From Castellaniella sp. MT123 (lineage in GTDB: Bacteria; Pseudomonadota; Gammaproteobacteria; Burkholderiales; Burkholderiaceae_B), in assembly GCF_039614765.1 (NCBI RefSeq), contig NZ_CP154879.1, positions 3,100,001 to 3,164,000 of the forward strand: a stretch of DNA of 64,000 bases, read 5' to 3'. The notes beneath the pieces were generated by a model. That model worked only from the letters and a program-made list of their open reading frames with translations. It searched no databases and was not told the origin of the DNA. The translations under genes and the position numbers were made by a program. Shown piece by piece: positions 23,990 to 42,158 of this stretch. The first letter of the stretch is position 1. Each line of letters opens with the position of its first letter.

Positions 23990-24002
23990 GTCGTATGATG
24001 AC
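23990..24002 (+). promoter_or_regulatory. Aldarate-regulon operator copy 1
   Basis: GTCGTATGATGAC, a full match to GTYRTATGATRAC. It sits 76 bases before the ATG of the NitT/TauT-type binding protein and ties this ABC operon to the uronate/aldarate regulon. Its TATGAT resembles a -10; CTGTCA 18 bases upstream is a weak -35. Confidence 0.65.
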
Positions 24003-24078
24003 GGACGATATATCCTGGGATTGAGCAGAATCCGGGTGTCCTAAAAATTAAGACTTTCACAACGGATGGAGACTTGCC

Positions 24079-25095
24079 ATGAAATTACTTTCTCGCATCA
24101 GCCTGAGTGTGACCGTCTGTGCCGCAGCCGCTGCGTTCAGCGGCGCCGCGACGGCCCAGGAAGCCCACGAGATCATGATCACCAAGCAACCCAGCATTCT
24201 CTACCTGCCGGCCCTGGTCATGGAAAAGCAGGGGCTGATCGAAAAGGCAGCCGCCAAGGAAGGCGTAACGGGTCTGAAGGTCAACTGGCGGTCGTTCAGC
24301 GGCGGCGGCGCGGCGACCGATGCGCTCTTGTCCGGAAACGTCCAGATCGTCAATAGCGGCCTGGGGAACATGTTGCTGCTGTGGGATCGCACGAAGGGGC
24401 AGGTCAAGGGGATCGCGACGAATTCCGCGCTGCCGGAAGATCTGGTGACGCGCAACCCGAAGATCCATTCGCTCAAGGACTACGGCCCGAAGGACAAGAT
24501 CGCCGTGCCGACGGTCCGGGTCTCCACCCAGGCGCTGCTGCTGCAGATGGCGGCCGCACAGCTCTTCGGACCCGACCAATGGTCCAGGCTGGATGCCAAT
24601 ACCGTCCAGATGGGACACCCGGATGCGGCGGCCATGCTGGCCAACCCCAGTGGCGAAGTCGGTTCGCATTTCGGCGCGCCGCCGTACTCGTACCGTGAGC
24701 TCAAGACCGTGCCCAACGCCCATGTCGTGATCCGCTCGACGGACATCGTCAAGGGTGGCCTGTCGCAGTCCACGCTGTTTACTACGACCAAGTTTGCGGA
24801 TGCCAACCCGAAGATCATCCAGGCGGTGCTGATGGCTTCGCAACAGGCCATCGACTACATCAAGGCTCACACGCGAGAATCCGTCGACATCTACCGCGAG
24901 CTCAGCGGTGACAAGACGAGCCCTGAAGAGCTGATGGATCTTCTGGCCCAGCCCGGCATGATGGATTACACCACTCAGCCGCTGGGATCCATGAAGTTTG
25001 CCGAGCACATGCACAAAGTCGGCATCCTGAAGACCATGCCCACGAAGTGGACGGATTATTTCCTGCCCGCGTCGGCTTCCCTGAACGGTAACTAA
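24079..25095 (+). CDS. NitT/TauT-type ABC transporter, periplasmic binding protein
   Basis: A 338-residue SsuA/THI5-like substrate-binding protein with a standard signal peptide (cut after GAATAQ or close to it). The sequence ITKQPSILYLPALVMEKQGLIEKAA and the GGGAATDALLSGNVQI loop are typical of the family. GGAG seven bases before the ATG supports the start. The ligand is unknown: relatives bind nitrate, taurine, sulfonates, thiamine precursors or aromatic acids. The operator copy at 23990-24002 and the adjacent uronate dehydrogenase suggest a sugar-acid-related substrate, which would be unusual for this family. Confidence 0.85.
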   Translation: MKLLSRISLSVTVCAAAAAFSGAATAQEAHEIMITKQPSILYLPALVMEKQGLIEKAAAKEGVTGLKVNWRSFSGGGAATDALLSGNVQIVNSGLGNMLLLWDRTKGQVKGIATNSALPEDLVTRNPKIHSLKDYGPKDKIAVPTVRVSTQALLLQMAAAQLFGPDQWSRLDANTVQMGHPDAAAMLANPSGEVGSHFGAPPYSYRELKTVPNAHVVIRSTDIVKGGLSQSTLFTTTKFADANPKIIQAVLMASQQAIDYIKAHTRESVDIYRELSGDKTSPEELMDLLAQPGMMDYTTQPLGSMKFAEHMHKVGILKTMPTKWTDYFLPASASLNGN

Positions 25096-25117
25096 CTGAG
25101 GGTCACGGAGTTTCATC

Positions 25118-25885
25118 ATGCCGCATCTGCTTGAGGTCGATTCCGTCACGTTGCGCTACAAGACGTCGGAAAGCATTGTCACTGCAACCTCCAAGGTCAG
25201 TTTCGACGTGGACAGCGGTGATCGTTTTGTGTTGCTGGGCCCGTCAGGTTGCGGAAAATCCACTCTCCTGAAGGCCGTCGGGGGCTACCTCGCCCCCGAC
25301 GAAGGAGAGATCCGCATCAAGGGGCAGGCGGTCAAGCGGCCGGGTGCCGACCGGATGATGGTCTTCCAGGAGTTCGATCAGCTGCTGCCCTGGAAGACCG
25401 TGCTGGAAAACGTCATGTTCCCGTTGATCGTGGCCCGCAAAATGCACCGGTCCGAGGCGCGCGACAAGGCCATGGCCTTTGTCAAAAAGGTCCAGCTGGA
25501 AAAGTTCGCCAATAGCTACACGCATACCCTGTCGGGCGGCATGAAGCAGCGCGTGGCCATCGCGCGTGGGATGTGCATGGAGCCGGACATCCTGTTGATG
25601 GACGAACCTTTCGCCGCCCTGGATGCGCTGACCCGTCAGCAGATGCAGGACGAACTGCTGCAGCTCTGGGAAGGCACTCACTTCACCGTGATGTTCGTCA
25701 CGCACTCGATTGCCGAGGCCATTCGCATCGGCAACCGGATCCTGCTGCTGTCGCCGCACCCGGGCGAGGTCAAGGCGGAAATCAGCGACGTGAGCGCGGT
25801 GGCACGGGAAGACGGCTCGGCGGCGGCACTCGAGCGCGAGATACACGACATGCTTTTTGCTGAAGCGATGACGGAGCATTCATGA
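25118..25885 (+). CDS. NitT/TauT-type ABC transporter, ATP-binding protein
   Basis: A 255-residue ABC ATPase of the SsuB/TauB class. Walker [11 protein letters not shown]-loop region VFQEFDQLLPWKT, signature LSGGMKQRVAIAR, Walker B DILLMDEPFAALDA, H-loop FVTHSIAEA. GGAG precedes the ATG by seven bases. It overlaps the permease gene by ATGA. It energises uptake by the flanking permease and binding protein. Confidence 0.92.
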   Translation: MPHLLEVDSVTLRYKTSESIVTATSKVSFDVDSGDRFVLLGPSGCGKSTLLKAVGGYLAPDEGEIRIKGQAVKRPGADRMMVFQEFDQLLPWKTVLENVMFPLIVARKMHRSEARDKAMAFVKKVQLEKFANSYTHTLSGGMKQRVAIARGMCMEPDILLMDEPFAALDALTRQQMQDELLQLWEGTHFTVMFVTHSIAEAIRIGNRILLLSPHPGEVKAEISDVSAVAREDGSAAALEREIHDMLFAEAMTEHS

Positions 25886-26748
25886 TGGGTCAGGCAACGA
25901 TTACCTTGAGACAACGGGAACAGGACGGCCAGCGCAAGACCGTCGTGCTCGAACGCCAGCTTTCCGTCTGGCACCGGCTCTGGAACCAGACGTTCCTGCG
26001 CAAGACGGCGATCATCGTCGTTCTGGCGATCGCCTGGCAGGTCTATGGCAGCGTGGTAAACAACACCCTGCTGTTTCCCACGCTGTCGGATACGGTCAGC
26101 TCTTTCGTCAGCAGCATCCAGAGCGGTGTGCTGGTCGATCGCGCGTGGACGTCATTGCGGATTCTGGTCCTCGGGTATGTCACCGGCATCGTGATCGCCG
26201 CCGCGCTGACGATCCTGGCGATCAGTACGCGCATCGGGACGGACTTCCTGGAAGTCATGACGGCGATGTTCAATCCGCTGCCCGCGATCGCGCTCCTGCC
26301 GCTTGCGCTGCTGTGGTTTGGTCTGGGCACGACCAGCATTGTCTTCGTGCTGCTGCATTCGGTCGTCTGGGTTGTCGCGCTGAACACACAAGGCGGTTTC
26401 CTGTCGGTGTCGCAGACTTTGCGCATGGTGGGCCGAAATTATGAACTGACCGGTTTGCGCTACGTGTCCCTGATCCTGATCCCGGCGGCGTTTCCCGCGA
26501 TTTTGACGGGCCTGAAGATCGCCTGGGCCTTCGCCTGGCGCACTTTGATCGCCGCCGAACTGGTCTTCGGCGTGTCTTCGGGCAAGGGTGGTCTGGGGTG
26601 GTACATCTTCGAGAACCGCAATCTGCTGGACATCCCGGCGGTGTTCGCCGGACTGCTGACGGTGATCGTGATCGGCTTGATCGTGGAAAACTTCGTCTTC
26701 CGCCTGGTGGAAAAACGGACCGTCCGGCGCTGGGGCATGCAGAGCTGA
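25882..26748 (+). CDS. NitT/TauT-type ABC transporter, permease
   Basis: A 288-residue inner-membrane permease of the SsuC/TauC family with about six TM helices after a 40-residue cytoplasmic N-terminus. The coupling loop is less like the usual EAA motif and reads LRMVGRNYELTGLRYVSLIL; PLPAIALLPLALLWFGLG is characteristic of the family. It ends the operon; a strong terminator follows within 40 bases. Confidence 0.9.
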   Translation: MMGQATITLRQREQDGQRKTVVLERQLSVWHRLWNQTFLRKTAIIVVLAIAWQVYGSVVNNTLLFPTLSDTVSSFVSSIQSGVLVDRAWTSLRILVLGYVTGIVIAAALTILAISTRIGTDFLEVMTAMFNPLPAIALLPLALLWFGLGTTSIVFVLLHSVVWVVALNTQGGFLSVSQTLRMVGRNYELTGLRYVSLILIPAAFPAILTGLKIAWAFAWRTLIAAELVFGVSSGKGGLGWYIFENRNLLDIPAVFAGLLTVIVIGLIVENFVFRLVEKRTVRRWGMQS

Positions 26749-26792: not shown

Positions 26793-26805
26793 GTCATATG
26801 ATGAC
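26793..26805 (+). promoter_or_regulatory. Aldarate-regulon operator copy 2
   Basis: GTCATATGATGAC; it fits the consensus and is itself nearly palindromic. It lies 30 bases before the ATG of the uronate dehydrogenase gene, so a bound protein would cover the start of transcription. Confidence 0.7.
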
Positions 26806-26835
26806 GTACCACATAAAAGTCCGTTGGAGGTTGGA

Positions 26836-27645
26836 ATGAATGAGAACAGGTTGGGTCGGCTGCTGCTGACGGGTGCCGCCGGGGGATTGGGACGTGTCCT
26901 GCGGGATACGCTCAAGCCAATGGCCCGGATCCTGCGCGTGTCGGACGTACAGGCGCTGGGGGACGCGCAGGCCGACGAGGAAGTCCGGCCCTGCGATCTG
27001 TCCGACAAGCAGGCCGTCGATGCCCTGGTCCAGGGCTGCGATGCCATCGTGCATCTGGGGGGGGTATCGGTCGAGCGGCCGTTCGAGGAAATCCTGGAAG
27101 CCAACATCAAGGGGGTCTTCCACATCTACGAAGGCGCCCGCCGGCATGGGGCGCGCCGCGTGATCTTCGCCAGCTCCAACCACACGGTCGGTTTCTACCG
27201 GCAGACGGATCGCCTGGATGCGCGCTCGCCGACGCGCCCCGACGGCTACTACGGCCTGTCCAAGGTCTATGGCGAGCAGATGGCCAGCTTCTACCACGAC
27301 CGTTACGGGATCGAAACGGTCAGTATCCGCATCGGCACTTCGGTGGCCGAGCCGACCGACCGTCGCATGATGCACACCTGGCTCAGTTTCAGGGATCTGA
27401 CCGAACTGATCCGGCGCGGCCTGTTCACCCCGAACGTCGGGCACACGGTGGTGTTCGGCATGTCGGCCAACCGCGAGGTCTGGTGGGACAACAGCCAGGC
27501 GGCCCATCTGGGCTACGCGCCGGCCGATTCGTCCGAGCCCTTCCGGCAGCGGGTCGAAGCCACGCCCGAACCCGCCGCCGATGATCCCGTCCGGATCTAT
27601 CAGGGCGGCGTGTTCACGGCCAGGGGGCCGTTCGGCGACGATTGA
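26836..27645 (+). CDS. udh: Uronate dehydrogenase
   Basis: A 269-residue short-chain (extended-type) NAD-dependent dehydrogenase that oxidises D-galacturonate or D-glucuronate to the aldarolactone, the first step of the oxidative pathway. Start ATG 26836 has GGAGG five bases upstream. Features: LLTGAAGGLGRVLR (NAD-binding), CDLSD, HLGG, FASSNHTVGFY (substrate-binding segment typical of Udh), YYGLSK (catalytic Y139 and K143) and SIRIGTSV. Operator copy 2 lies directly upstream. The downstream gene is convergent. Confidence 0.9.
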   Translation: MNENRLGRLLLTGAAGGLGRVLRDTLKPMARILRVSDVQALGDAQADEEVRPCDLSDKQAVDALVQGCDAIVHLGGVSVERPFEEILEANIKGVFHIYEGARRHGARRVIFASSNHTVGFYRQTDRLDARSPTRPDGYYGLSKVYGEQMASFYHDRYGIETVSIRIGTSVAEPTDRRMMHTWLSFRDLTELIRRGLFTPNVGHTVVFGMSANREVWWDNSQAAHLGYAPADSSEPFRQRVEATPEPAADDPVRIYQGGVFTARGPFGDD

Positions 27646-28685: not shown

Positions 28686-30020
28686 TCAGGACCGGACCAG
28701 GCTGGGCTGTTTATTGTCGAAACGCCAGCCGGGGATCAGGAACTGCATGCCCACGGAATCGTCCCGGCTGCCCAGGCCTTTTTCCTGGTACAGCGCATGC
28801 GCCCTGGCCAGGCGGTCGGAGTCGATGCGGATGCCGAGGCCGGGCACCTGCGGGACAGCGATCGCGCCATCGATGATGCGCAGCGGATCCGCCGTCAGGT
28901 GCTGGCCGTCCTGCCAGATCCAGTGCGTGTCGATGGCTGTGATGTCGCCGGGCGCCGCAGCCGCGACGTGGGTGAACATGGCCAGCGAAATGTCGAAGTG
29001 GTTGTTGGAATGAGAGCCCCAGGTCAGGCCCCATTCGTGGCACATCTGGGCCACCCGGACGGAGCCCCGCATCGTCCAGAAGTGCGGGTCGGCCAGGGGG
29101 ATGTCCACGGACTGCAGCTGAATCGCATGCATCATCTCGCGCCAGTCGGTCGCGATCATGTTGGTGGCGGTGCGCAGACCGGTCGCACGGCGGAATTCCG
29201 CCATGACCTCCCGGCCCGAATACCCGGATTCCGCGCCGCAGGGGTCTTCCGCGTAGGCCAGGACGTGGTGTTGATCCCGGCACAGGCGGATGGCTTCCCG
29301 CAGGGACCAGGCGCCGTTCGGATCCAGCGTGATGTGCGCATCCGGGAAGTGTTCGGCCAGGGCGGTGACGGCCTCGATTTCGGCGTCGCCCGCCAGGACG
29401 CCGCCCTTCAGTTTGAAATGGCGGAAGCCGTAGCGCGCCCGGGCGGCCTGGGCCAGGCGGACCACGGCGTCGGGGGTCAGGGCTTCCTGGTTGCGCAGGC
29501 GGAACCATTCATCGTCCGCGGCGTCTTCCTGGCGGTAACCCAGCGTCGTCTTGCCCGCGTCACCGATGTAGAACAGATACCCCAGTGCCTCGACCTTGTC
29601 GCGCTGGCGGCCATCGGCCAGCAGCGCGGCCACAGGCACGCCCAGATGCTGGCCGAGCAGATCCAGCAGCGCGGATTCGAGTGCGGTGACGACGTGGACG
29701 CCGGTGCGCAGATCGAAGGTCTGGGTCCCGCGCCGGTCTTCCGTGCCGCCCTGGGTGGCCTTGCGGCAGCGTTCCAGCAGTTCGTTGATCTGGCCGATCG
29801 GTTGTCCGATCAGCTGCCGGCCCAGCCGCTCGATCTCGGCACGGATCTTCTCGCCGCCGGGAACTTCACCCAGGCCCTGGTGGCCGGCGCTATCGTCGAT
29901 CAGGACGATGTTGCGGGTGAAGTAGGGGCCATGCGCGCCGCTGAGGTTCAGCAGCATGCTGTCCTGGCCGGCGACGGGCACGACCGTGACTTTGGTGACC
30001 TGAGGTGTCTGCTGTGTCAT
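28686..30020 (-). CDS. gudD: Glucarate dehydratase
   Basis: A 444-residue enolase-superfamily enzyme of the E. coli GudD type that dehydrates D-glucarate (and L-idarate) to 5-keto-4-deoxy-D-glucarate. Start ATG 30020 ([15 protein letters not shown]). The catalytic pair is in HFKLKGG (K203, K205), metal ligands in DPNGAWS, EDPCGAE and the TNMIATDWR strand, and the general-base His in [15 protein letters not shown]. It lies 23 bases downstream of the aldehyde dehydrogenase gene, so first and last steps of the branch share a transcript. Confidence 0.93.
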
Positions 30021-30043
30021 GGGGATTCCTGCGGAGCTCGTGT

Positions 30044-31612
30044 TCAACGTTCGGATCGGTTGATGTGCCAGGGATTGGTCGCCTGAAGGGCGGCGGGCAG
30101 TAGCGCGTCGGGAATGTCCTGATAGCACACGGGACGCAGGAACCGGCGAATGGCCAGGGTGCCGACCGAGGTCGTACGGCTGTCGGACGTGGCGGGGTAG
30201 GGGCCGCCATGCACCATTGCATCGCAGACCTCGACCCCCGTCGGGAAGCCGTTGGCCAGGATGCGGCCCGCCTTCAGTTCCAGGATCGGGATCAGGGCGG
30301 CCGCGAGCGCGTCGTCCGGACCGGATTCCAGGTGGATCGTCGCCGTCAGCTGGCCTTCCAGTGCCTGCGCCAGGGCCGTGAATTCCGCCGCGTCCGCGCA
30401 GCGCACGATCAGAGAACTGGCGCCGAAGACTTCCGCGCCCAGGCCCTCCGGGTCGGCCAGAAAGGCCTGTGCCGTCGTCACCGCGAGATTGGCCTGGCAG
30501 TGAGCGGGCGTCTCGTCGGAAGTGCCTCGCGCCAGGCCGTCGACAGCCGGGTGCGCCAGCAGGCGCTCGACACCGGTACGGTAGGCGCGGGCGATGCCTG
30601 GGGTGAGCATGGTGGCAGCCGGTGCCGCCCGGACGTTACCGCTGACCTGTGCGATGAAACGGTCCAGATCCGGGCCGTTCAGGGCGATGACCAGGCCGGG
30701 GTTCGTGCACAGCTGTCCGGCGCTGCCCAGCAGCGAGACCGAAAACTGGTCGGCCAGCGTCGTGGTGCGCGCGGCCAGGGCGCCGGGCAGCAGGTAGACC
30801 GGGTTGGTGCTGCTCATTTCCGCGTAGACGGGGATCGGCACGGGGCGCTGGGCGGCGGCGTGCATCAGGGCAATGCCGCCCTGGCGCGAACCGGTGAACC
30901 CCACCGCCTGAATACCGGGATGGCGCACCAGCGACAGGCCCAGTTCGATGCCTGGGCCGGCGAGCAAGGAGAACACGCCTTCATGGAGCTGGCACTGCTG
31001 GACAGCGGCGCGGATCGCCTGACCGACGAGTTCCGACGTGCCGGGGTGGGCCGGGTGCGCCTTGACGACGACCGGTGCGCCCGCAGCCAGAGCCGAGGCG
31101 GTATCGCCGCCCGCCACCGAGAACGCCAGCGGGAAATTGCTGGAACCGAAAACGGCGACGGGGCCCAGTGGAATGTGCCGCGTGCGCAGGTCGCTGCGCG
31201 GCGCGGGCTTGCGGTCGGGCAAGGCATGATCGATGCGGGCATCGATCCAGTCGCCGTCGCGCACTACCCGGGCGAACAGACGCAATTGGTTGACTGTGCG
31301 GCCGCGTTCGCCTTCCAGGCGGGGGCGGGGCAGACCCGTTTCCAGCATGGCGCGTTCGATCAATTCGTCGCCCAGATCCAGGATGGCTTGTGCGATCGCC
31401 TCCAGGAAGGTCGCCCGATGTTCGAGCGTGGTTTCCCGATAGCTGGCGAATGCCTGGGTGGCCAGGCCGACGGCCTGGTCGACCTGGCGGGCGTCGGCGC
31501 CTTTCCAGGCGGGAGACAGGGTCTGGCCGGTGGCCGGATTGACCGCCTGGAAAGCCTCGCCGGCGCCAGGGATGTTTTGTTTGCCGATGAGTTGCATGCC
31601 GATGATGGGCAT
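30044..31612 (-). CDS. 2-oxoglutarate semialdehyde dehydrogenase
   Basis: A 522-residue NAD(P)-dependent aldehyde dehydrogenase of the KGSADH (2,5-dioxovalerate dehydrogenase) group, which yields 2-oxoglutarate in the last step. Catalytic Cys302 in [12 protein letters not shown] and Glu265 in [34 protein letters not shown] is the characteristic coenzyme-site stretch of this group. The ATG at 31612 has GGAG eight bases upstream. An operator copy lies 36 bases upstream. First gene of a unit with gudD. Confidence 0.9.
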
Positions 31613-31647: not shown

Positions 31648-31660
31648 GTTATCATACAAC
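31648..31660 (-). promoter_or_regulatory. Aldarate-regulon operator copy 3
   Basis: On the minus strand GTTGTATGATAAC, identical to the copy upstream of kdgD. It lies 36 bases before the aldehyde dehydrogenase ATG, with TATGAT oriented toward that gene. Confidence 0.7.
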
Positions 31661-31903: not shown

Positions 31904-31916
31904 CTTATATGATGAC
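31904..31916 (+). promoter_or_regulatory. Aldarate-regulon operator copy 4
   Basis: CTTATATGATGAC, one mismatch to the consensus at the first base. It lies upstream of the transporter remnant and 266 bases before the lactonase ATG. With the remnant between them, it is the only copy distant from its target gene. Confidence 0.6.
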
Positions 31917-32012
31917 TTATGAGTAATGACGAGCCGTCAGCGCCACCCACTCTGGAAGTGTTCAGTACGTCGCATTTTCGTCGGGATGCGATTTTTCATT
32001 TGGTTCTGTTCG

Positions 32013-32181: not shown

Positions 32182-33114
32182 ATGTGGGAAGAAAGCGAAC
32201 GGTATCCAGACCCTCGTATCGAGATCATCCATCCCGATTTTGAAAAATATCGTCTGTTCAACGCCGCCGTGGAACGCCTGGCGACCGGAACCCGCTGGGG
32301 GGAAGGGCCGGTCTGGTTTCCCGCAGGGCGCTATCTGTTATGGAGCGATCTTCCCAACGAGCGGATCCTGAAGTGGGAAGAAAGCGACGGCCATGTGTCG
32401 ATCTTTCGGTCGCCCAGCAACATTGCCAATGGCAATACGCGTGATCGTCAGGGGCGGCTGGTCAGTTGCGAACATCTCGGGCGCCGTGTCACGCGCACGG
32501 AACACGATGGTTCCATCACGGTTCTGGCGGACTCGTTCGAAGGACGGCCCCTGAATTCCCCCAACGACGTGGTCGTCAGTTCGGATGGTTCGGTCTGGTT
32601 CAGCGATCCGCCGTTTGGTCTGCATGGACGCTACGAGGGAACCGTCGAGACGCCGCAGCTTCCCCCCAGCCTGTACCGGATTGACGGACAGACCGGCGTG
32701 CTGCACCTGGTGTTCGCCGACATGGCGGGCCCCAATGGCCTCTGTTTTTCTCCTGACGAGTCCAAACTGTATGTGGTTGACTCCAGGGCCAGGCCCCATC
32801 GCCTGATTTACGCGTTCGATGTCGGCCCGGATTGGCAGCTGTCCGGCCGCCAGGCCCTGATCGATTGCGGGCCGGGGACGTCGGACGGTATCCGTTGCGA
32901 TGAGGATGGGAACCTCTGGTGCGGCTGGGGCATGGGTTCGGATTCCCTGGATGGGGTGCGGATATTCAATCCGGCCGGGGAACCGATCGGGCATATCCAT
33001 TTGCCGGAACGATGCGCCAATATCTGCTTTGGCGGATCAAAAGGCAATCGCCTCTTCATGGCGGCCGGGAAGAACTTGTATGGCCTCTTCGTCAACACCC
33101 GTGGGGCCGTCTGA
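32182..33114 (+). CDS. SMP-30/gluconolactonase-type aldarolactonase
   Basis: A 310-residue six-bladed propeller hydrolase. The metal ligands of the SMP-30 family are visible: E41 in RWGEGPVWF, Asn in NSPNDVVVSSDG, Asn in GPNGLCFSPD and Asp in TSDGIRCDEDG. In this context it should hydrolyse the glucaro- or galactarolactone made by Udh to the free aldarate. Close relatives act on many sugar lactones, so the substrate is inferred. It is followed after 70 bases by the galactarate dehydratase gene. Transcription would have to come through the transporter remnant from operator copy 4. Confidence 0.85.
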   Translation: MWEESERYPDPRIEIIHPDFEKYRLFNAAVERLATGTRWGEGPVWFPAGRYLLWSDLPNERILKWEESDGHVSIFRSPSNIANGNTRDRQGRLVSCEHLGRRVTRTEHDGSITVLADSFEGRPLNSPNDVVVSSDGSVWFSDPPFGLHGRYEGTVETPQLPPSLYRIDGQTGVLHLVFADMAGPNGLCFSPDESKLYVVDSRARPHRLIYAFDVGPDWQLSGRQALIDCGPGTSDGIRCDEDGNLWCGWGMGSDSLDGVRIFNPAGEPIGHIHLPERCANICFGGSKGNRLFMAAGKNLYGLFVNTRGAV

Positions 33115-33184: not shown

Positions 33185-34375
33185 ATGTCTACCCCTGAAT
33201 CCGCCTCGTTCGCCGCTCCTGCCGGTGCCGCCTCGGCCGCCGACGGAAGCGGTGACCGTGTTGTCTGGATCAAGCTGTCGCTGGCCTTTCTGCCGCTGCC
33301 GACACCCATCAGCGACGCCAAAGTCTTCACCGGTCGCCAGAAGCCGCTGACCGAAGTCGCCATGATTTTCTGCGAGATCCGCACCCGCGATGGCCACGAA
33401 GGCCTCGGGTTCGCGTATTCGAAGCGGGCGGGCGGCCCGGGTATGTATGCCCATGCCAAAGAGATCGCGCCGACCCTGCTGGGCGAGGATCCCAGCGATA
33501 TCCAGCGGCTCTGGGAACGGCTGTCCTGGGCCGGCGCGTCCGTGGGCCGCAGCGGCCTGACCGTGCAGGCCATCGCCCCGTTCGACATCGCCTTGTGGGA
33601 CATGAAGGCCAAGCGCGCCGGCCTGCCGCTGGCGAAATTGCTGGGCGCACATCGGGATTCGGTGCGCCTGTACAACACCTCGGGAGGCTTCCTGTCCACG
33701 CCGCTGGATCAGGTGCTGGACAATGTGGATGCTTCGCGGGCCCGTGGCATCGGCGGCATCAAGATCAAGGTCGGCCATCCGGACCATGCGGTCGATCTGC
33801 AGCGTGTCGATGCGGTGCGCAAGAAGCTGGGCGACAGCTTCCCGCTGATGGTCGATGCCAATCAGCAATGGGACCGGATGACGGCGGCCCGCATGTGCCG
33901 GGTGCTGGAACAGTACGGCCTGACCTGGATCGAGGAACCGCTGGACGCCTATGACGTCCAGGGCCACGCGGCGCTGGCGGCAACGTTCGACACGCCGATC
34001 GCCACCGGCGAGATGCTCACCAGCTTTCGCGAGCATGCGGAACTGATCGAGGCCCATGCGTCGGACTTCTTTCAGCCCGACGCGCCCCGTGTCGGCGGCA
34101 TCACGCAGTTCCTGAAGATCATGCAGCTGGCCGACTATCACGGCCTGAGCATGGCGCCGCACTTCGCCATGGAAGTCCACCTGCATCTGGCGGCCGCCTA
34201 TCCGCGCGAACCCTGGCTGGAACACTTCGAATGGCTGGAGCCGCTGTTCAACGAGCGTCTGGTGATGAAGGACGGGCGCATGCTGGTCCCGAATCGACCT
34301 GGCCTGGGCTTCACCCTCAGCGATCAGGCGCGCGCCTGGACGACGGAAACCGCCGAGTGCGGCAAGCGCCCTTGA
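33185..34375 (+). CDS. L-talarate/galactarate dehydratase
   Basis: A 396-residue enolase-superfamily enzyme of the mandelate racemase subgroup. Markers of the TalrD/GalrD branch: GLGFAYSKRAGGPGMYAHAKE in the capping domain, the KIKV catalytic lysine motif, metal ligands in MVDANQQWD, WIEEPLD and ATGEML, and the general-base His in MAPHFAMEVHLHLAAAYP. It would convert galactarate (from galacturonate) to 5-keto-4-deoxyglucarate, complementing GudD, which handles glucarate. Last gene of the lactonase unit; a clear terminator follows. Confidence 0.88.
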   Translation: MSTPESASFAAPAGAASAADGSGDRVVWIKLSLAFLPLPTPISDAKVFTGRQKPLTEVAMIFCEIRTRDGHEGLGFAYSKRAGGPGMYAHAKEIAPTLLGEDPSDIQRLWERLSWAGASVGRSGLTVQAIAPFDIALWDMKAKRAGLPLAKLLGAHRDSVRLYNTSGGFLSTPLDQVLDNVDASRARGIGGIKIKVGHPDHAVDLQRVDAVRKKLGDSFPLMVDANQQWDRMTAARMCRVLEQYGLTWIEEPLDAYDVQGHAALAATFDTPIATGEMLTSFREHAELIEAHASDFFQPDAPRVGGITQFLKIMQLADYHGLSMAPHFAMEVHLHLAAAYPREPWLEHFEWLEPLFNERLVMKDGRMLVPNRPGLGFTLSDQARAWTTETAECGKRP

Positions 34376-34525: not shown

Positions 34526-35416
34526 TCAGCGCTGGATGTTCAGTGTCATCCCGACGCTCAGTGTTTCACCAGGATCCAGTGTGATGAGCCCGGTCCCCGG
34601 GGCGCCGGCCGCCGCCAGATTGACCGCGTCGCAGACATGGGTGGCGGGCTCCACGCACAGGTAGCGCCCGGCGTTGCAGTGCAGAACGACGTGATCCAGT
34701 GGACCCCGGACCCGCAGGGCCAGGCCCGGGCCGGATGGCCATTGGATCGCGGCATGACCCGACCAGCCTGACAGGAAGGCGGTCCAGGTGGTGTCGGTGC
34801 GCTGCCAGGAATCCTGGCGATTAGGTCTGGGAAAGAGCGCCAGTTCCTGTTCATGTGCCCAGTCGGTGGTGGCATCCAGCCGCGTGCCGCAGGCCGTGAA
34901 ATAGGGGTGCAGACCCAGGCCCGCCGGCATGCGTCGGGGATCCTGATTGCGCAGGGCAAGCTCGATATCCAGACCTTCAACCGACAGCCGGATGGTCTGG
35001 CGCAGGGACCAGGCCCAGGGCCAGCCATCGTCCCCCGCCGGATGGTGGACTTCCAGCACGGCCAGATCCGCTTCCGTCTGGATCACATTCCAGGCCATGC
35101 GTTGTGCTTGCCCATGCAGGGCATGCGGGTGACCGGGCAGCGGATCGACTTTCAGAGTCCGGCCTTCCCAGCGCAGGCGGGCGTCGCGAATGCGGTTGGA
35201 AAAGGGGGCCAGGGGAAACAGGCCGCCTTTGGGCCATTCGTGCGCCGGCCAGTTAGTGGCTTCGATGGGCACCAGCCATTCGCGGGGCCCTTCAGGCAGA
35301 TCGGTGGTCCAGTTCAGGATGCGGCCGCCTGCGGCGGGCGCTACCCGGACCCGATGCGGACCCTGGTTCAGGGTCAGGCATCGGTCCGGCTCGGCGTCCA
35401 TCCAGGGGGGCATCAT
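34526..35416 (-). CDS. Aldose 1-epimerase family protein
   Basis: A 296-residue galactose-mutarotase-like protein. Seen: GGLFPLAPFSNRIRDARLRW (substrate arginine), HALHGQAQRMAW (first catalytic His region), GLGLHPYF (second His) and a Glu near the C-terminus (CVEPATHVCDAVN). It would speed anomer interconversion of imported hexuronates before Udh, which acts on a specific ring form. It is the last gene of the ABC importer unit, 15 bases behind the second permease gene. The ATG at 35416 is used; ATG 35401 is equally possible. Confidence 0.85.
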   Translation of the reverse strand: MMPPWMDAEPDRCLTLNQGPHRVRVAPAAGGRILNWTTDLPEGPREWLVPIEATNWPAHEWPKGGLFPLAPFSNRIRDARLRWEGRTLKVDPLPGHPHALHGQAQRMAWNVIQTEADLAVLEVHHPAGDDGWPWAWSLRQTIRLSVEGLDIELALRNQDPRRMPAGLGLHPYFTACGTRLDATTDWAHEQELALFPRPNRQDSWQRTDTTWTAFLSGWSGHAAIQWPSGPGLALRVRGPLDHVVLHCNAGRYLCVEPATHVCDAVNLAAAGAPGTGLITLDPGETLSVGMTLNIQR

Positions 35417-35431
35417 GGCCGGTTGTCCCGG

Positions 35432-36298
35432 TCATGCCTCACGTGGCGCATCCTTGACCCGGCTGACCAGTTGGGTCGGGCTGACGAAGCGCAGGGCGAT
35501 CAACACCCAGACCATGGTGATGGCCATGTAGATCATGGCCATGGCGTCGATCGCCTGCGGTGCCCGCACCCCCGTCGAGAAGACGGCATAGTACAGGGCG
35601 ACCACCAGTGTCTGGGAGTCGGGTCCGGCCGTGAAGAAGGTCAGTTCGAACATGCTGATGGTGCGCACCAGCACCAGCAATCCCGCAGCCAGCATGCCGG
35701 GCACCAGCAGGGGCGTCAGCACGTGGCGGAAATACTGATAGGTGTTGGCGCCGAAGATCCGCGCGGCGGATTCCAGGCCTGGGTCGATCTGTTCGATGAA
35801 GGGGGTCATGACCAGGATCACGAAGGGCAGGGCAGGCACCAGGTTCGACAGGATGACCCCCGCCAGGGTGCCGCCCACACCGACCTGATACATGGCCGTG
35901 GCCATCGGAATCCCGTAAGTGACGGGTGGGATCAGCATGGGGATGATGATCAGCAGCATCACCAGCCGCTTGCCCGGGAAGTTGGCGCGGGCCAATGCGT
36001 AGGCCGCCGGCACCCCCAGCGCGATCGAGAGGACGACGACCGAAACGACGACTTCGAGCGTGACCAGCAGGATGTGGCTCAGCTGGAATTCATCCCACGC
36101 GCGGCCGTACCAGCCCAGCGTGAAGCCTTCCGGCAGCAGGGTTCCGAACCAGCGGGTGGCGATGGAATTCACCACCACCGTGGCGATCATGAAGACCACG
36201 TTCAGCAGAAAGAACCCCATGACGGTCCAGACTGTGGCGCGCCACAGCCAGCCCCAGCGTCGGCGGCCGCCAGGCGCGGTATGTGTGTTGACGTTCAT
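35432..36298 (-). CDS. ABC transporter permease 2 (PotC/iron-type)
   Basis: A 288-residue inner-membrane permease, started at ATG 36298 (MNVNTHTAPG) four bases beyond the stop of permease 1. About six TM helices; the coupling loop reads ESAARIFGANTYQYFRHVLTPLLVPG (EAA-like). It resembles the second permease of spermidine/putrescine or Fe(III)-type importers. Context (operator copy at 39597, mutarotase, dehydratases) suggests that the cargo is a hexuronate or aldarate. Confidence 0.88.
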   Translation of the reverse strand: MNVNTHTAPGGRRRWGWLWRATVWTVMGFFLLNVVFMIATVVVNSIATRWFGTLLPEGFTLGWYGRAWDEFQLSHILLVTLEVVVSVVVLSIALGVPAAYALARANFPGKRLVMLLIIIPMLIPPVTYGIPMATAMYQVGVGGTLAGVILSNLVPALPFVILVMTPFIEQIDPGLESAARIFGANTYQYFRHVLTPLLVPGMLAAGLLVLVRTISMFELTFFTAGPDSQTLVVALYYAVFSTGVRAPQAIDAMAMIYMAITMVWVLIALRFVSPTQLVSRVKDAPREA

Positions 36299-36302
36299 GT
36301 GT

Positions 36303-37178
36303 TTACCCCTTGCCACTGGTGGCCGGCCCGGTATAGAAAGCCCGCCGGAACGCGAAGATTGCGCAAACGATGAGCAACTGCGCAAAACCCATCACGATGG
36401 CGATCGCCGACGCCATGCCGTAGTCGTACTGTTCGAAGGCTGCCTCGTAGGCGGCGATGGATATCACCCGAGTGGGGCCCGCCGGCGCGCCCAGCAGGAT
36501 CGCGGACGGGAAGACCGCGAAGGTCTGCACGAAGGACAGAGCGGCGGCCATGCTCAGGCCGGGCACCAGCAGCGGCAGGTAGATCAGGCGGAACTGCTGC
36601 CAGCTATTGGCGCCCAGCGTACCCGCGGCCTTGGCCAGCGTCGGGTCGATGCCCGAGATGTACGAAAGCGTCAGCAGAAAGACAAACGGAAAGTCGGAGA
36701 TCACCAGGGAGATCAGCACGCCCCAGTAGTTATGTGTCAGCCGGACTTCGGGTGTGTACAGATGCAGGGCGTGCACCGCCTGCGAGAACCAGCCTGACGG
36801 GCCGAAGTACGTCAGCATCCCGTCGGCGATCAGCACGGTTCCCAGGGTGATGGGGATGACCAGAATGGTGGTGACGATGCGCTGCTTGCGGCTGTTGCGG
36901 CGCAGGGAGAACGCAACTGGGACGGCCATCCCGACGTTGATCAGCGTCGCCGGCGCGGCGAGCTTGAAGGTGGCCCACAGCGTGCCCCATTCGGTCGACG
37001 TCGTGAAGAAGTGAATATAGTTGGCCCAGATGTTGGTGCCTTCCATGGGCTGGAATGAAATGACCACGCCGTACAGGAATGGATAGACAAAGAGCGCCAG
37101 CAGCAGCACGACTGCGGGGGCGACCAGCCAGCCCCGGCGATCCCCTCTGGGTGCCAGGGAGAGATCTGCGGCGCTCAT
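36303..37178 (-). CDS. ABC transporter permease 1 (PotB/iron-type)
   Basis: A 291-residue permease with about six TM helices. The N-terminus [17 protein letters not shown] precedes TM1 (VLLLALFVYPFLYGVVISF). The coupling loop is KAAGTLGANSWQQFRLIYLPLLVPG. The start overlaps the ATPase stop by four bases. It pairs with the following permease to form the channel. Confidence 0.9.
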   Translation of the reverse strand: MSAADLSLAPRGDRRGWLVAPAVVLLLALFVYPFLYGVVISFQPMEGTNIWANYIHFFTTSTEWGTLWATFKLAAPATLINVGMAVPVAFSLRRNSRKQRIVTTILVIPITLGTVLIADGMLTYFGPSGWFSQAVHALHLYTPEVRLTHNYWGVLISLVISDFPFVFLLTLSYISGIDPTLAKAAGTLGANSWQQFRLIYLPLLVPGLSMAAALSFVQTFAVFPSAILLGAPAGPTRVISIAAYEAAFEQYDYGMASAIAIVMGFAQLLIVCAIFAFRRAFYTGPATSGKG

Positions 37179-38263
37179 GCGGCCTCCGCATAGGCAAGCA
37201 CCCGATCGGCAGGAATATGCAGGCGGATCCGGTCGCCGGGCTGGAAGTTGCCGCCGATGCGCACGAACAGTTCGCCGATTTCGCTGTTCACGACCAGCAG
37301 CGAACTGCGTCCGCCGAACTCGATGTGCTGGACGGTGGTGTCGATGCAGTTGTCCTGGCCATCGGCCGCGACCTCGAAATCGTCGGGCCTCATGGCGACG
37401 GCCACGGTCTGCGTGTCCGTCGGCACCGACATCGCCTCGCCGTTGAGTCGGACCGGTCCCTGAGTGACCGTGATCCGGTCGCCTTCCTGACGGGTAACCT
37501 GGAAGGGCAGCACGTTGCGATAGCCCATGAAGCGCGCGACGTGCAGATTGCGCGGGCGGCCGTAGACTTCGCGCGGGGTGCCGACCTGCTGGACGCTGCC
37601 TGCGCGCATCACGACGATCCGGTCGGCCATCGACAGGGCCTCGTCCTGGTCGTGGGTGACGTAGATCGTGGCGCGTTCCAGCTGGCGGTGAATGCGGCGG
37701 ATTTCCGCGCGCATCTCGACTCGCAGCTTGGCGTCCAGGTTGGACAGAGGTTCGTCCATCAGGATCACGGGCGGCTCGATGACGATGGCGCGCGCGATGG
37801 CGACTCGCTGCTGCTGCCCGCCCGAGAGCTGACCGGGCAGTTTGGATTCGTGCCCTTCGAGCTGGACCAGCGTCAGCGCGGCCTTGACCCGGCTGGTGAT
37901 CTCGTGCTTTGGTACGCCGCGCATACGCAGGCCGAAGCCGACGTTGTCGAGAACGCTCATGTGCGGAAAGAGGGCGTAATTCTGGAAGACCATGCCGAAC
38001 CCACGCCGTTCAGGAGGCAGCACGTCGATTCGTGTGTCGTCCAGCCAGATACTGCCGGAGCTGAGTTCGGCCAGTCCGGCCAGGCAGTTCAGCGCTGTCG
38101 ATTTGCCGCAGCCCGATGGGCCCAGCAGCGCGATGAACTCGCCGCGCCGGATGTCGAGACTGAGGTCGCGCAGGGCGGCGACATTGGAACCCGATGCCGT
38201 GGCGTACTGTCGTCCGACGCCATCCAGGCGCAGCTGTTGGAAATTTTCGTTCATGTGCAACAT
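37175..38263 (-). CDS. ABC transporter ATP-binding protein (PotA-type)
   Basis: A 362-residue ATPase: Walker [11 protein letters not shown]-loop [12 protein letters not shown], signature [14 protein letters not shown], Walker [15 protein letters not shown]-loop VTHDQDEA, then a C-terminal TOBE domain from about 240 ([10 protein letters not shown]). This is the PotA/UgpC-like architecture with a regulatory domain. It begins 62 bases after the binding-protein gene. Confidence 0.92.
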
Positions 38264-38325
38264 CCAGGGGAAAACAGGCCGCCCGCGTCCGGACAGGTGG
38301 ATGCGGGCGGGTGATCAGGCCAGGT

Positions 38326-39498
38326 TTACTTCTTCAGGGCGCCGATGTCGGTGTCCCATTTCTGGAAGGCCGCAACCATGGCCTTGGCGTCCAGCGGAAC
38401 CGCGCTGGGCCGGCGGGCGGTCAGGTCGGCATATTCCGAACGGCCATACTTCTCGATGACTTCCTGGCTTTCCTTCGGCGCGGCCGACAGCGGCACGTCG
38501 CGGATGGCCGGACCCGGATAGAAGTAGCCCGTGTCGTAGGTCATGGCCTGCTGCTTGGGTTGCAGCATGAAGTCCATGAGCTTGAACAGGACCTCCTGCT
38601 TTTTCGCCGAGACGCCCTTCGGGATCACCATGTAGTGTGCGTCGTTCACCCAGGTGAAGTTGTCGAAGGCCTGGATCTTGAAGTTGGCCGGTACGATGCC
38701 CAGCGCCCGCGGGTTGATGTCCCAGCCTGTCACGGTCACGGTCATGGTGCGGCTGCCCTGGCCGAGTTCCTTCATGATGGCCGAGGTACCACCCGGGTAG
38801 TAGGGGACGCAGTCGTTCAGCTCTTTCAGGAACTTCCAGGTGTTGTCCCAACCTTTGATCGGATCATAGGGGTCCTTGTCGCCCAGCAGGTAGGGCAGGC
38901 CCATCAGGAAGGTGCGGCCGGGGCCGGAGTTGGCCGGGCGCGCGTACAGGAACTGATTGGGGTTGGCCTTGCACCAGGCCAGCAGTTCGGCCGGGGTTTT
39001 GGGCGGATTCTTGACCTTGTCGGGGTTGTATTCCAGCAGTGGACCCGACTGCATGAAACTGACTTCCAGCCCGTAGCCTTTAGCCAGATCCTGCATCCGG
39101 GCGGCGTTGCGGTGGTACTTATTCAGGATGTCCTTGAACTTGTCCTGATGGTCGGGCAGCAGTTTGACCCACAGGTCCTGTTCGATGCCAGCGGCCAGCG
39201 CATCGGTGCCGGTCAGGACCAGATCGATGTCCGCGCGGTTGGCCTTCTGCATGGCCTTGATCTTTCCAGGCAGCTGCGGCGCCGGCGCGTTGGTGAAGGT
39301 CATGCTGGAAACCAGACCGGGATTCTGGTCACGGAAGGATTCCAGCGCTTTTTGCGTGACCGCCAGATTGCCGGCCACGTCGACTATGTTCAGCGCCACA
39401 GGTTCAGCGTGAACCGAAACGGCGGCGCATGCCAGGGTCAGGGCGCCCGCCAGCGCGTGAAATCGCATGCGTCGTGACGTCTGCTTGGTGCCTTTCAT
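38326..39498 (-). CDS. ABC transporter periplasmic binding protein (family 1)
   Basis: A 390-residue extracellular solute-binding protein. Signal peptide (MRFHALAGALTLACAAVSVHA after a charged start MKGTKQTSRR), then EPVALNIVDVAGNLAVTQKALE, typical of family 1 proteins. First gene of the five-gene importer/mutarotase unit; operator copy 5 lies 98 bases upstream. The ligand is inferred as a hexuronate or aldarate from the regulon and the neighbours. Confidence 0.87.
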   Translation of the reverse strand: MKGTKQTSRRMRFHALAGALTLACAAVSVHAEPVALNIVDVAGNLAVTQKALESFRDQNPGLVSSMTFTNAPAPQLPGKIKAMQKANRADIDLVLTGTDALAAGIEQDLWVKLLPDHQDKFKDILNKYHRNAARMQDLAKGYGLEVSFMQSGPLLEYNPDKVKNPPKTPAELLAWCKANPNQFLYARPANSGPGRTFLMGLPYLLGDKDPYDPIKGWDNTWKFLKELNDCVPYYPGGTSAIMKELGQGSRTMTVTVTGWDINPRALGIVPANFKIQAFDNFTWVNDAHYMVIPKGVSAKKQEVLFKLMDFMLQPKQQAMTYDTGYFYPGPAIRDVPLSAAPKESQEVIEKYGRSEYADLTARRPSAVPLDAKAMVAAFQKWDTDIGALKK

Positions 39499-39596
39499 GG
39501 GTGTCTCCTTGTGTGTTCACCTATGCACGGAAAGAACCGGGTCCAGGGGAAAACAGCGCATGATGTCCCCGGGAATTGTTGTGTCCTTCCTCATAA

Positions 39597-39609
39597 GTCA
39601 TCATATAAC
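39597..39609 (-). promoter_or_regulatory. Aldarate-regulon operator copy 5
   Basis: On the minus strand GTTATATGATGAC, a full consensus match, 98 bases before the binding-protein ATG and with TATGAT reading toward it. Confidence 0.7.
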
Positions 39610-39776: not shown

Positions 39777-39789
39777 TTCGTCATACGAC
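39777..39789 (-). promoter_or_regulatory. Aldarate-regulon operator copy 6 (divergent, degenerate)
   Basis: Read on the minus strand GTCGTATGACGAA: 11 of 13 positions agree with the consensus. Unlike the other seven copies the TATGAY core points away from the downstream gene, and the site lies downstream of a separate promoter, 45 bases before ATG 39834. Confidence 0.5.
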
Positions 39790-39833
39790 ATCGTAAAAAC
39801 AATCACCCGGATCCGCTCCGCGGCACACCAGTC

Positions 39834-41108
39834 ATGAAGCTCAAGACCATCAGGATCACCCCGATCGCGTTCAAGGATCCTCCGCTGCTGAATGCGGCCG
39901 GCATCCACGAACCTTACGCGCTGCGCACCATCATCGAACTCGAAAGCGACACCGGGCATGTCGGCCTGGGGGAAACCTATGGGGATGCGCCAGTGCTGGA
40001 ACTGCTGCAGGCCCTGGCACCCGATCTGGCGGGGCTGGATCCTTTCAATCTGAACGGTTTGCGCCAGCGGGTGCGGGATGTCGTCGCGCGCACGCGGACC
40101 AGCGCCGGCACGGCCTTCACGCTGGCGCCGGGCACCGATCCCGCGAAGAATGTCCAGAAGCTGTATTCCGCGTTCGAGGTCGCCTTCCTGGACATGCAGG
40201 CCCGGTATCTGGGCATGCCGCTGGTCGATCTGCTGGGCGGGCGCGTGCGCGACGCGGTGCCGTTCAGCGCCTATCTGTTCTTCAAATATGCGCGCCACGT
40301 CGATGCCCACTACCAGGATGATGCCTGGGGCGAGGCATTGACCCCGGAACAACTGGTGGCGCAGGCGGAAACCATGATCGACCGGCATGGCTTCAAAAGC
40401 ATCAAGCTCAAGGCCGGCGTTCTGCCGCCCGAACAGGAAGTCGACTGCATCCGGGCGCTGGCCCACCGGTTTCCGGGCATGCCCCTGCGGATTGATCCGA
40501 ACGGCAACTGGTCCTTGTCCACGGCGATTGCGATGGGCGGGCAACTGGACGGGCTGCTGGAATACTACGAGGACCCGTGCCCGACGCTGGCGGACATGGC
40601 CGCCTTGCACCAGGCGACTGGCATGCTCCTGGCCACCAACATGGTGGTGACGGACCTGGATCAGTTCCGCGCCAACACCGCGACGCAGGGGTGTCAGATC
40701 ATCCTGTCGGATCATCATTACTGGGGCGGCCTGCGCGATACGCAGTTGCTGGCCCGCATGTGCGAGACCTTCGGCCTGGGGCTGTCCATGCATTCGAATT
40801 CGCACCTGGGCATCAGCCTGATGGCCATGGCTCACGTGGCGGCCAGCGTGCCCTTGCTCAGCTATGCCTGCGATACCCATTACCCGTGGCTGGATCCGAA
40901 CGAAGAGGTGATCGCCGGCGGGCAACTGCGCTTTCAGGATGGGGCCATCGTGCCGGGTGATGCCCCCGGGCTGGGCCTGGACATCGATCAGGATGCCCTG
41001 GCCCGATTGCATCGGCAGTATCTGGATTGCGGGATTCGTTCGCGCAACGACGCTGCGCAGATGCGAAAATACCGGCCAGGCTGGACCGGCAAGGCGCCAC
41101 GGTTCTGA
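39834..41108 (+). CDS. Glucarate-dehydratase-related enolase-superfamily protein
   Basis: A 424-residue second glucarate-dehydratase-like enzyme, started at ATG 39834 (MKLKTIRITPIAFKDPPLLN). It keeps the catalytic pair in SIKLKAG (K191, K193), metal ligands in RIDPNGNWSL, YYEDPCPT and the LATNMVVTDLDQF strand, and HSNSHLGISLMAMAHV for the general base. It is clearly a different branch from the gudD at 28686-30020: shorter, KLKAG instead of KLKGG and no EDPCGAE. It may be a glucarate dehydratase of the Burkholderia type or act on another aldarate epimer. Has its own promoter and operator. Confidence 0.82.
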   Translation: MKLKTIRITPIAFKDPPLLNAAGIHEPYALRTIIELESDTGHVGLGETYGDAPVLELLQALAPDLAGLDPFNLNGLRQRVRDVVARTRTSAGTAFTLAPGTDPAKNVQKLYSAFEVAFLDMQARYLGMPLVDLLGGRVRDAVPFSAYLFFKYARHVDAHYQDDAWGEALTPEQLVAQAETMIDRHGFKSIKLKAGVLPPEQEVDCIRALAHRFPGMPLRIDPNGNWSLSTAIAMGGQLDGLLEYYEDPCPTLADMAALHQATGMLLATNMVVTDLDQFRANTATQGCQIILSDHHYWGGLRDTQLLARMCETFGLGLSMHSNSHLGISLMAMAHVAASVPLLSYACDTHYPWLDPNEEVIAGGQLRFQDGAIVPGDAPGLGLDIDQDALARLHRQYLDCGIRSRNDAAQMRKYRPGWTGKAPRF

Positions 41109-41147: not shown

Positions 41148-41167
41148 GAAGTATGATGACAGTCATC
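41148..41167 (+). promoter_or_regulatory. Aldarate-regulon operator copy 7 with overlapping palindrome
   Basis: GAAGTATGATGAC (41148-41160) agrees with the consensus at 11 of 13 positions. It overlaps a perfect palindrome GATGAC-A-GTCATC (41155-41167). It lies 25-44 bases before the regulator ATG, so the GntR protein probably controls itself. Confidence 0.6.
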
Positions 41168-41191: not shown

Positions 41192-41935
41192 ATGGCCACT
41201 GCCACCGCCCGCCGTTCCCGCAGTCTGACCCAGGATGTCGTGACCGCTCTGTCCGAGCGCATCCGCAACGGGGAATTCCATGTCGGCGAAAAGCTGCCGA
41301 CCGAATCCGAACTGATGGAATCGTTCGGCGTCAGCCGCACGGTCATCCGGGAAGCCATCTCGCGCTTGCAGGCGGCGGGGCTGGTGGAAACCCGCCACGG
41401 GATCGGCACCTTCCTGCTGGAACCGCAGAACGAGCAGCAACTGCGCATCCGCACGGCAAACATCCTGACCATGCTGGACGTCATGGCCATCCTGGAATTG
41501 CGCATCAGCCTGGAAACCGAGGCGGCCGGCCTGGCGGCCTTGCGGCGCACGGATGCCCACGTGCATCAGCTGCGCACGATTCTGGATGAATTCGCCGAGC
41601 ACGTCCGTAAAAAAACCGGCAATGCCGTCGTCTCGGACGTGGCTTTTCACCTGCTGGTGGCGACCGCGACTGGCAACCGCTATTTCCACGACATCCTCAA
41701 ACAGCTGGGCAAGGCCATCATTCCCCGGACGCGGGTCGACTCGGTCGCGCACGCGGAAGGCGACCGGTCACGTTACCTGGAACGTGTCCATCTGGAACAC
41801 GAGGACATCTACAACGCCATTGTCCGCAAGGATCCAGACGCCGCCAGGGCCGCCATGCGGACCCACCTGGCCAATAGCAGGGAACGCCTGCGCAAGGCCC
41901 AGGAAGTCGCGGCGCAGCAGTACCAGTCGTCCTGA
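41192..41935 (+). CDS. GntR-family (FadR/FCD type) regulator of the aldarate cluster
   Basis: A 247-residue one-component regulator. An N-terminal winged helix spans residues about 10-80 (ERIRNGEFHVGEKLPTESEL, MESFGVSRTVIREAISRLQ, GLVETRHGIGTF). An FCD ligand domain follows from about 95 with the usual metal/ligand histidines (DVAFHLLVATATGN, LEHEDIYNAIVRKD, MRTHLANS). FadR-type regulators of hexuronate and aldarate genes generally repress and are released by a pathway acid. It is the only regulator in the 20-kb cluster, so it is the best candidate to bind the eight operator copies. Confidence 0.9.
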   Translation: MATATARRSRSLTQDVVTALSERIRNGEFHVGEKLPTESELMESFGVSRTVIREAISRLQAAGLVETRHGIGTFLLEPQNEQQLRIRTANILTMLDVMAILELRISLETEAAGLAALRRTDAHVHQLRTILDEFAEHVRKKTGNAVVSDVAFHLLVATATGNRYFHDILKQLGKAIIPRTRVDSVAHAEGDRSRYLERVHLEHEDIYNAIVRKDPDAARAAMRTHLANSRERLRKAQEVAAQQYQSS

Positions 41936-42111
41936 TCACGAATTCTGTTGTCGTACCTGTGCGCAGGCACGGGCGACGCGCGGGCGTTGGCCCACCTTGC
42001 ATCCGGTCCCGATCCACCGCGTTCGATTGCCGCTCCATCGGTTCAGTGCAGACTGTGAAATGGTCTATGGGCGCCGTCTTAGGGAAAACGAGGGGTTCCA
42101 GCCATGGTCAG

Positions 42112-42126
42112 TGACAGTCGCTGTCA
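42112..42126. repeat. Palindrome just upstream of the kdgD -35
   Basis: TGACAG-TCG-CTGTCA, perfect six-base arms. TTGCGA (42127-42132), a possible -35, follows directly and is 17 bases from the TATGAT (42150-42155) inside operator copy 8. The position suits a second regulator acting on kdgD. Confidence 0.45.
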
Positions 42127-42145
42127 TTGCGACTTCAAACTCCAT

Positions 42146-42158
42146 GTTGTATGATAAC
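42146..42158 (+). promoter_or_regulatory. Aldarate-regulon operator copy 8
   Basis: GTTGTATGATAAC, identical to copy 3 on the opposite strand. It lies 62 bases before the kdgD ATG, and its TATGAT is 17 bases from TTGCGA, so it probably doubles as the -10. Confidence 0.7.

Follow-up and report, generated by a model that had tools for sequence, protein, structure and literature searches.

The present work concerns eight copies of a 13-bp element in a 64,000-nucleotide stretch of the Castellaniella sp. MT123 genome (contig NZ_CP154879.1, positions 3,100,001 to 3,164,000; hereafter the window, the numbering of which is used throughout), for which a preliminary description had proposed that they define one regulon of uronate and aldarate genes under the FadR-type GntR protein encoded at 41192, with release of that protein by a pathway acid. 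A third half-site, an overlap of operator and −10 hexamer and the kinship with the GguR system, all treated below, go beyond that description. Comparison within and beyond the genus makes it highly probable (roughly 0.9 by our estimate) that these elements are operators of this local GntR/FadR-type repressor, the predicted GguR orthologue of the genus. The proposal of a single regulon is supported by the agreement between motif and regulator in ten of ten congeneric genomes, by the sites that accompany a relocated uronate dehydrogenase gene (udh), by an unbiased search for dyads in other genera and by a printed GguR-binding site. The system of the window would represent a GguR-type regulon, a kind already described, and its sites are predicted from sequence.

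All eight 13-mers were present at the positions and on the strands originally described, and from the order of open reading frames (ORFs) each precedes one transcription unit, giving eight sites for eight units, as had been claimed (Table 1). One register was revised: the site placed at 39777 on the minus strand and the overlapping site at 39780 on the plus strand score alike (each 9/10 to the palindrome GTYRT-N3-AYRAC, scored over 10 positions), and the register 39780–39792 is backed by six congeners. The palindrome is exact at five of the eight sites, while that at 41148 is the weakest (8/10).

Strict matching brings out the signal. The window contains five exact matches and eight with at most one mismatch, for which 200 shuffles gave means of 0.005 and 0.44, respectively; the intergenic DNA of the cluster (nine segments totalling 1,790 bp, two borders of which rest on inferred gene starts) holds five exact matches, seven with up to one and ten with up to two mismatches, against means of 0, 0.02 and 0.53 in 300 shuffles. 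A genome-wide scan, as suggested in the preliminary description, located exact copies of GTYRTATGAYRAC at five positions in the 3.37-Mb genome, every one inside the cluster. Allowing one mismatch added five further places, two of which are the cluster sites at 31904 and 39777, the remaining three lying within open frames, namely a haloacid-dehalogenase-like gene (18782) and two frames that by eye resemble a mobilisation protein (1181262) and SecA (2057381). At two mismatches there was no excess in the genome (295 matches, compared to 515 for a reversed control pattern). A separate count at up to three mismatches gave 39 occurrences where 35.0 were expected by chance. Loose matching was therefore dropped as a signal and the strict form relied upon. 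It is the central ATG that confers specificity on the motif in the Castellaniella sp. MT123 genome.

Ten congeneric genomes were searched for the motif, the GntR protein, the 5-dehydro-4-deoxyglucarate dehydratase KdgD and the uronate dehydrogenase Udh. Both the GntR protein and exact motif sites are present in eight, while the other two (G002 and G004) possess neither the motif nor any of the three proteins, a co-occurrence which fits a regulon. By position, 22 of the 24 strict matches in the genus belong to the cluster or precede udh. The latter gene is found outside the cluster in five genomes (G003, G005, G006, G007 and G008), and an exact site lies upstream of it in all five, as it does in the window; four of these are draft assemblies in which udh sits on a contig different from that of the cluster, which fixes no actual distance. 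In G001, where udh follows kdgD, no site was seen in the 113 bases read upstream. When 20 stretches of congeners and relatives were scanned with a matrix, many weak matches inside genes were returned, and these were not used.

Conservation in orthologous clusters, which the preliminary description had put forward as a check, was borne out beyond the genus, where the motif was recovered upstream of gntR without prior knowledge of it. The sample comprised the best 80 of 595 relatives from a scan of genome contigs (52–63% identity), drawn from Achromobacter, Bordetella, Caballeronia, Burkholderia, Pseudomonas, Variovorax, Polaromonas and other genera, genomes that are not mutually independent. 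KdgD was encoded near the gntR orthologue at 50 of the 80 loci, Udh at 30, the glucarate dehydratase GudD at 19 and the ketoglutarate-semialdehyde-type aldehyde dehydrogenase (KGSADH) at 10, while 10 of the 80 showed not one of the seven enzymes that were looked for. The two top-ranking dyads upstream of gntR were TTGT-N3-ACAA (16/80; shuffle mean 0.2) and GTTG-N5-CAAC (15/80; 0.57). The exact palindrome was found upstream of 39/80 gntR, 35/50 kdgD and 25/32 udh hits, with shuffle means of 0.30, 0.40 and 0.07, respectively, and upstream of 4/9 KGSADH and 3/23 gudD hits. These dyads have GT and AC three nucleotides apart, which is described as the usual operator spacing of the FadR subfamily (PMC4494728); within the window, AT frequently takes the place of GT or AC as the inner pair of a site.

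The genome holds 22 first-look candidate relatives of the 41192 protein, and it is conceivable that a different regulator, encoded outside the cluster, binds the sites. We consider this very unlikely: a single genome protein matches the query at an E value of 1e-40 or better, the motif and the 41192-type GntR agree in presence and absence across the ten congeneric genomes, and at the 80 loci of other genera an excess of the palindrome is found upstream of the orthologues of this protein.

The GguR regulon of Proteobacteria serves the same hexuronate/aldarate pathway and is governed by a protein of the same family, GntR. Linkage to udh, an aldarate dehydratase gene or kdgD, a trait of GguR, is found in the window. 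GguR regulons have reportedly been reconstructed by Bouvier (2019) in numerous species belonging to the Burkholderiaceae, Comamonadaceae, Halomonadaceae and Pseudomonadaceae, and the motif is said to have been tested in vitro. A strict ATG centre distinguishes the sites of Castellaniella from other GguR sites. A GguR-binding site of Polaromonas sp. JS666, printed with reference to Bouvier (2019) as cagtcatcagacaacct where it serves as a negative control for another protein, contains GTCATCAGACAAC, a 13-mer with the same palindrome as the window sites (PMC8376909). This 13-mer lies between udh and the gntR orthologue at three Polaromonas loci (L139, L149 and L151), and the printed 17-mer itself was in none of the 183 loci searched. 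Predicted GguR regulons comprising galactarate/glucarate and hexuronate genes are also described for two Halomonas genomes; transport there is by a tripartite tricarboxylate transporter and UxuPQM, whereas ABC transporters are encoded here (PMC5507952).

The element may instead be read as chiefly a promoter signature, that is, a conserved −10 hexamer (TATGAT) with its flanks and no operator. At seven of the eight window sites the strand that carries TATGAT is the coding strand of the gene that follows, and at 42146 TTGCGA stands 17 bp upstream of the hexamer. Of 40 kdgD sites of other genera, which are mostly from Pseudomonas and not independent, 35 have TACGAT as their core and 32 a TTG hexamer at a spacer of 16 or 17 bp, with none at 13–15 or 19–20 bp, five at 22 and four at 9; at kdgD promoters the operator core TAYGAT thus fits as a −10 hexamer. 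Among the 25 udh sites, cores of TCAGAC (9) and TACGAC (8) predominate; neither is a −10 sequence, yet these sites retain the palindrome, and in 12 of them a TATAAT-like hexamer (5/6) begins 14–15 bp ahead of the operator. Furthermore, exact copies of the strict motif are confined to the cluster within this genome, and conserved palindromic flanks are foreign to sigma-70 promoters. The notion of a mere −10 element was rejected on these grounds, and a promoter signature devoid of an operator is, in our judgement, barely credible. The preferred reading, that of repressor operators, would instead have the operator cover the −10 hexamer (kdgD type) or the stretch just downstream of it (udh type), and both arrangements would be compatible with repression by exclusion of RNA polymerase.

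The 41192 protein was the sole DNA-binding family match among the 20 ORFs scanned against Pfam and NCBIfam, as the preliminary description had held for the cluster. It combines a GntR winged helix (PF00392, 2e-23) and an FCD domain (PF07729, 3.9e-25), an architecture that we presume GguR to share, and Pfam and PDB sequence matches already settle its protein family. NanR, the best NCBIfam name, was ruled out as its identity with 118.3 bits against a cut-off of 260, and the protein also scores far below the cut-offs of ExuR/UxuR (101.4 against 396 and 98.5 against 442 bits). Residues R104, D149, H153, R179, H203 and H225 are shared by all 18 sequences aligned and pair in the same order (counted by hand from the alignment) with R128, D172, H176, R203, H222 and H244, given as the zinc and carboxylate residues of NanR (PMC8012715). 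Retention of these metal and carboxylate residues suggests that the ligand is likely a metal-bound acid; they fit a sugar acid while singling out none, and if uronate and aldarate genes share one inducer, an aldarate or 5-dehydro-4-deoxyglucarate would be the best candidate. Arg at helix-turn-helix position 28 is stated to accompany the G of TGGT (PMC4494728). That position is S39 here, and by eye the aligned relatives likewise lack Arg there, showing S, A, V, H or some other residue, which agrees with Y rather than G at the motif position.

A GntR dimer would recognise the palindrome GTYRT-N3-AYRAC, positioned on or immediately beyond the −10 region as described above, and once bound would keep RNA polymerase from all eight transcription units, that of gntR itself among them. 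Release of the repressor would follow when a sugar acid of the pathway (uronate, aldarate or 5-dehydro-4-deoxyglucarate), held by a metal, binds the FCD domain.

Many operators carry on their gene side a third half-site, AYRAC, which is separated from the palindrome by 2 bp and whose start is thus offset by 15 bases from that of the palindrome. This was assessed in 72 distinct exact palindromes of other genera, oriented by their catabolic gene, and in the 48 that remained after collapsing at 70% identity. The box (scored of five positions) was present at 4/5 or better in 59/72 and exactly in 47/72, or 37/48 and 28/48 in the collapsed set, over a flank background per offset of 5.2% and 0.6%. 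A symmetrical arrangement was ruled out, GTYRT occurring at the mirrored offset of −7 in 6/72 (at least 4/5) and 0/72 (exact). Other flank peaks were smaller and mostly shrank on collapsing: GTYRT at −12 from 16/72 (11 exact) to 7/48 (3 exact), AYRAC at −18 from 20/72 to 7/48 and GTYRT at −19 from 19/72 to 6/48. In the window, the third box reaches at least 4/5 at five of the eight sites (23990, 26793, 31904, 39597 and 42146) and was not found at that threshold at 31648, 39777/39780 or 41148. The perfect 20-bp form occurs eight times across the ten congeneric genomes, once in each that carries the GntR protein and always before kdgD. With one mismatch chance matches also appear (10 of them in G002, from which the regulator is missing) and in most genomes reversed controls are as high or higher, so that the perfect form alone is diagnostic.

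The box stands on the gene side, near the expected start of transcription, and may not be bound by the GntR protein at all, reflecting instead a transcription-start or leader preference. This we regard as unlikely, since the box varies among four forms in the collapsed set (ATGAC 9, ATAAC 7, ACGAC 6 and ACAAC 6) in the manner of the palindrome half-sites, and its offset is constant before both kdgD (exact in 10/19) and udh (18/23) despite their differing distances from −10-like hexamers; before KGSADH it is exact in 0/4. The third half-site would probably allow a second dimer to settle next to the first and repress more tightly. A more far-reaching reading, to which we give somewhat less than even odds, is an asymmetric operator GTYRT-N3-AYRAC-N2-AYRAC for GguR-type repressors, in which the second dimer would dock cooperatively on the gene side of the first and the perfect three-half-site form would mark the shared dehydration step. 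Such an assembly would be intermediate between ordinary FadR palindromes and the NanR tandem-repeat assembly while dispensing with the N-terminal extension of NanR.

NanR of Escherichia coli is likewise a FadR-type regulator with an FCD metal site and an operator of more than two recognition units. It binds GGTATA repeats, whereas the core here is an inverted repeat, and its cooperativity is described as requiring a 32-residue N-terminal extension (PMC8012715); the alignment starts at residue 10 here compared to residue 30 in NanR, which indicates that no such extension is present. The third half-site is not contained in the 26-bp GguR fragment as printed (PMC8376909). Near GntR-family sites, weaker boxes 7–12 nucleotides from the centre, on one or both sides and of a function unknown at the time, are described for 23 orthologous groups by Suvorova in 2015 (PMC4494728), in contrast to the single offset on the gene side alone found here. 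DgoR, ExuR and UxuR of E. coli are likewise FadR-type regulators of sugar-acid genes; the 41192 protein scores far under the family cut-offs of the latter two, and DgoR, described as binding two inverted repeats across the dgo promoter, has half-sites that differ from those here, its inverted repeat IR1 being given as TTGTAGTACAA (PMC12288454). The one-sided third half-site is the part of the system that may be new.

A number of observations weigh against the interpretation of the eight elements as operators of the 41192 repressor. The palindrome with a free centre is unspecific, occurring at 26 places in the genome, five of them in the cluster, with 89 for the reversed control, and a promoter scan of the whole window showed no excess (4 against 4.1 expected). 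The site before gntR is weak in the window and its surroundings align poorly with those of congeners. In other genera the exact palindrome was not found upstream of 41/80 gntR and 20/23 gudD genes, although gudD may often be internal to an operon, and the 40 kdgD sites counted above are, as noted, largely Pseudomonas sites and not independent of one another. G002 and G004 lack GntR, KdgD and Udh alike, and consequently the regulator is not separable from the pathway. Finally, two strict matches, both in the fragmented genome G007, precede genes without a link to the pathway. One lies before the gene of a TM2-domain protein; the second is next to a P-type ATPase gene on a 3.4-kb contig, close to the contig end, and may instead precede a minus-strand gene truncated there. 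Exact palindromes in that genome lie at 325 and 426 by the ATPase gene (L176, contig 116) and at 6034 by the TM2-domain gene (L175, contig 32); these may be further regulon members, belong to a cut-off neighbour or be due to chance.

Table 1. Putative operators and genes of the uronate/aldarate cluster in the window.
Feature	Position	Strand	Remarks
Putative operator GTCGTATGATGAC	23990–24002	+	Before substrate-binding protein, ATPase and permease unit; third box ACGAT 24005–24009 (4/5)
ABC transporter	24079–26748	+	Substrate-binding protein (NMT1-like; SsuA-like below cut-off), ATPase, permease
Putative operator GTCATATGATGAC	26793–26805	+	Before udh; third box ACCAC 26808–26812 (4/5)
Uronate dehydrogenase Udh (by context)	26836–27645	+	NAD-dependent epimerase/dehydratase family; start inferred
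Aldehyde dehydrogenase and glucarate dehydratase-like protein	28686–31612	−	Ketoglutarate-semialdehyde type by context
Putative operator GTTGTATGATAAC	31648–31660	−	Before KGSADH-gudD unit; third box lacking (2/5)
Putative operator CTTATATGATGAC	31904–31916	+	Before lactonase/galactarate dehydratase unit; downstream boxes ATGAG 31919–31923 and ATGAC 31926–31930
SMP-30/gluconolactonase-family protein and L-talarate/galactarate dehydratase	32182–34375	+	Dehydratase above curated cut-off
Second ABC transporter and aldose-1-epimerase-like protein	34526–39498	−	Substrate-binding protein, ATPase, two permeases
Putative operator GTTATATGATGAC	39597–39609	−	Before second ABC transporter; third box ATGAG 39590–39594
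Putative operator GTCATACGACATC	39780–39792	+	Before enolase-superfamily gene; earlier 39777–39789 (−), shifted by 3 bp
Enolase-superfamily protein	39816–41108	+	Start inferred; ORF runs from 39729
Weak putative site GAAGTATGATGAC	41148–41160	+	Before gntR; 8/10; adjoining GTCATCTAACGTC at 41162, 9/10
GntR/FadR-type regulator with FCD domain	41192–41935	+	GguR orthologue by context and motif
Full three-half-site putative operator GTTGTATGATAAC-GT-ATAAC	42146–42165	+	Before kdgD
KdgD, 5-dehydro-4-deoxyglucarate dehydratase	42221–43132	+	Above curated cut-off

The functions of Udh, KGSADH and the lactonase were assigned by context, and the glucarate dehydratase-like protein scores 791 bits, short of the curated cut-off of 829. 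Two minus-strand ORFs at 22577–23926, which belong to the 20 scanned, match no Pfam family and have homologues beside the cluster in three congeners (44–67% identity). Weaker palindrome matches at 23863–23875 (9/10) and 23919–23931 (8/10) precede the 23990 site by 127 and 71 bp and lie inside or at the start of one unnamed ORF, 23384–23926. In congeners more than one operator-like site occurs between the divergent genes and upstream of kdgD (L055, 14628/14816 and 18852/18978; L063, 19239/19373). Further along the window, at 46024–46130, genes for phosphoenolpyruvate carboxylase (minus strand, start 46129) and a dihydroxy-acid dehydratase-family protein (plus strand, start 46128) overlap at their start codons. 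At the same place in G061, a genome of the same species (L184, 1353–4745), approximately 3.4 kb of permease, ATPase and substrate-binding genes stand behind a GguR-type site, GTCATACGATGACGTATCAC, and the strain of the window therefore seems to lack one further regulon member.

The analysis provides a testable regulon for the use of uronates and aldarates in the genus Castellaniella, tying a hitherto un-annotated motif to a named regulator, and the sites would possibly be useful in sugar-acid sensors. The third half-site, for its part, offers a handle on a question of the GntR family described as open in 2015, namely the role of the weaker boxes that accompany palindromes (PMC4494728).

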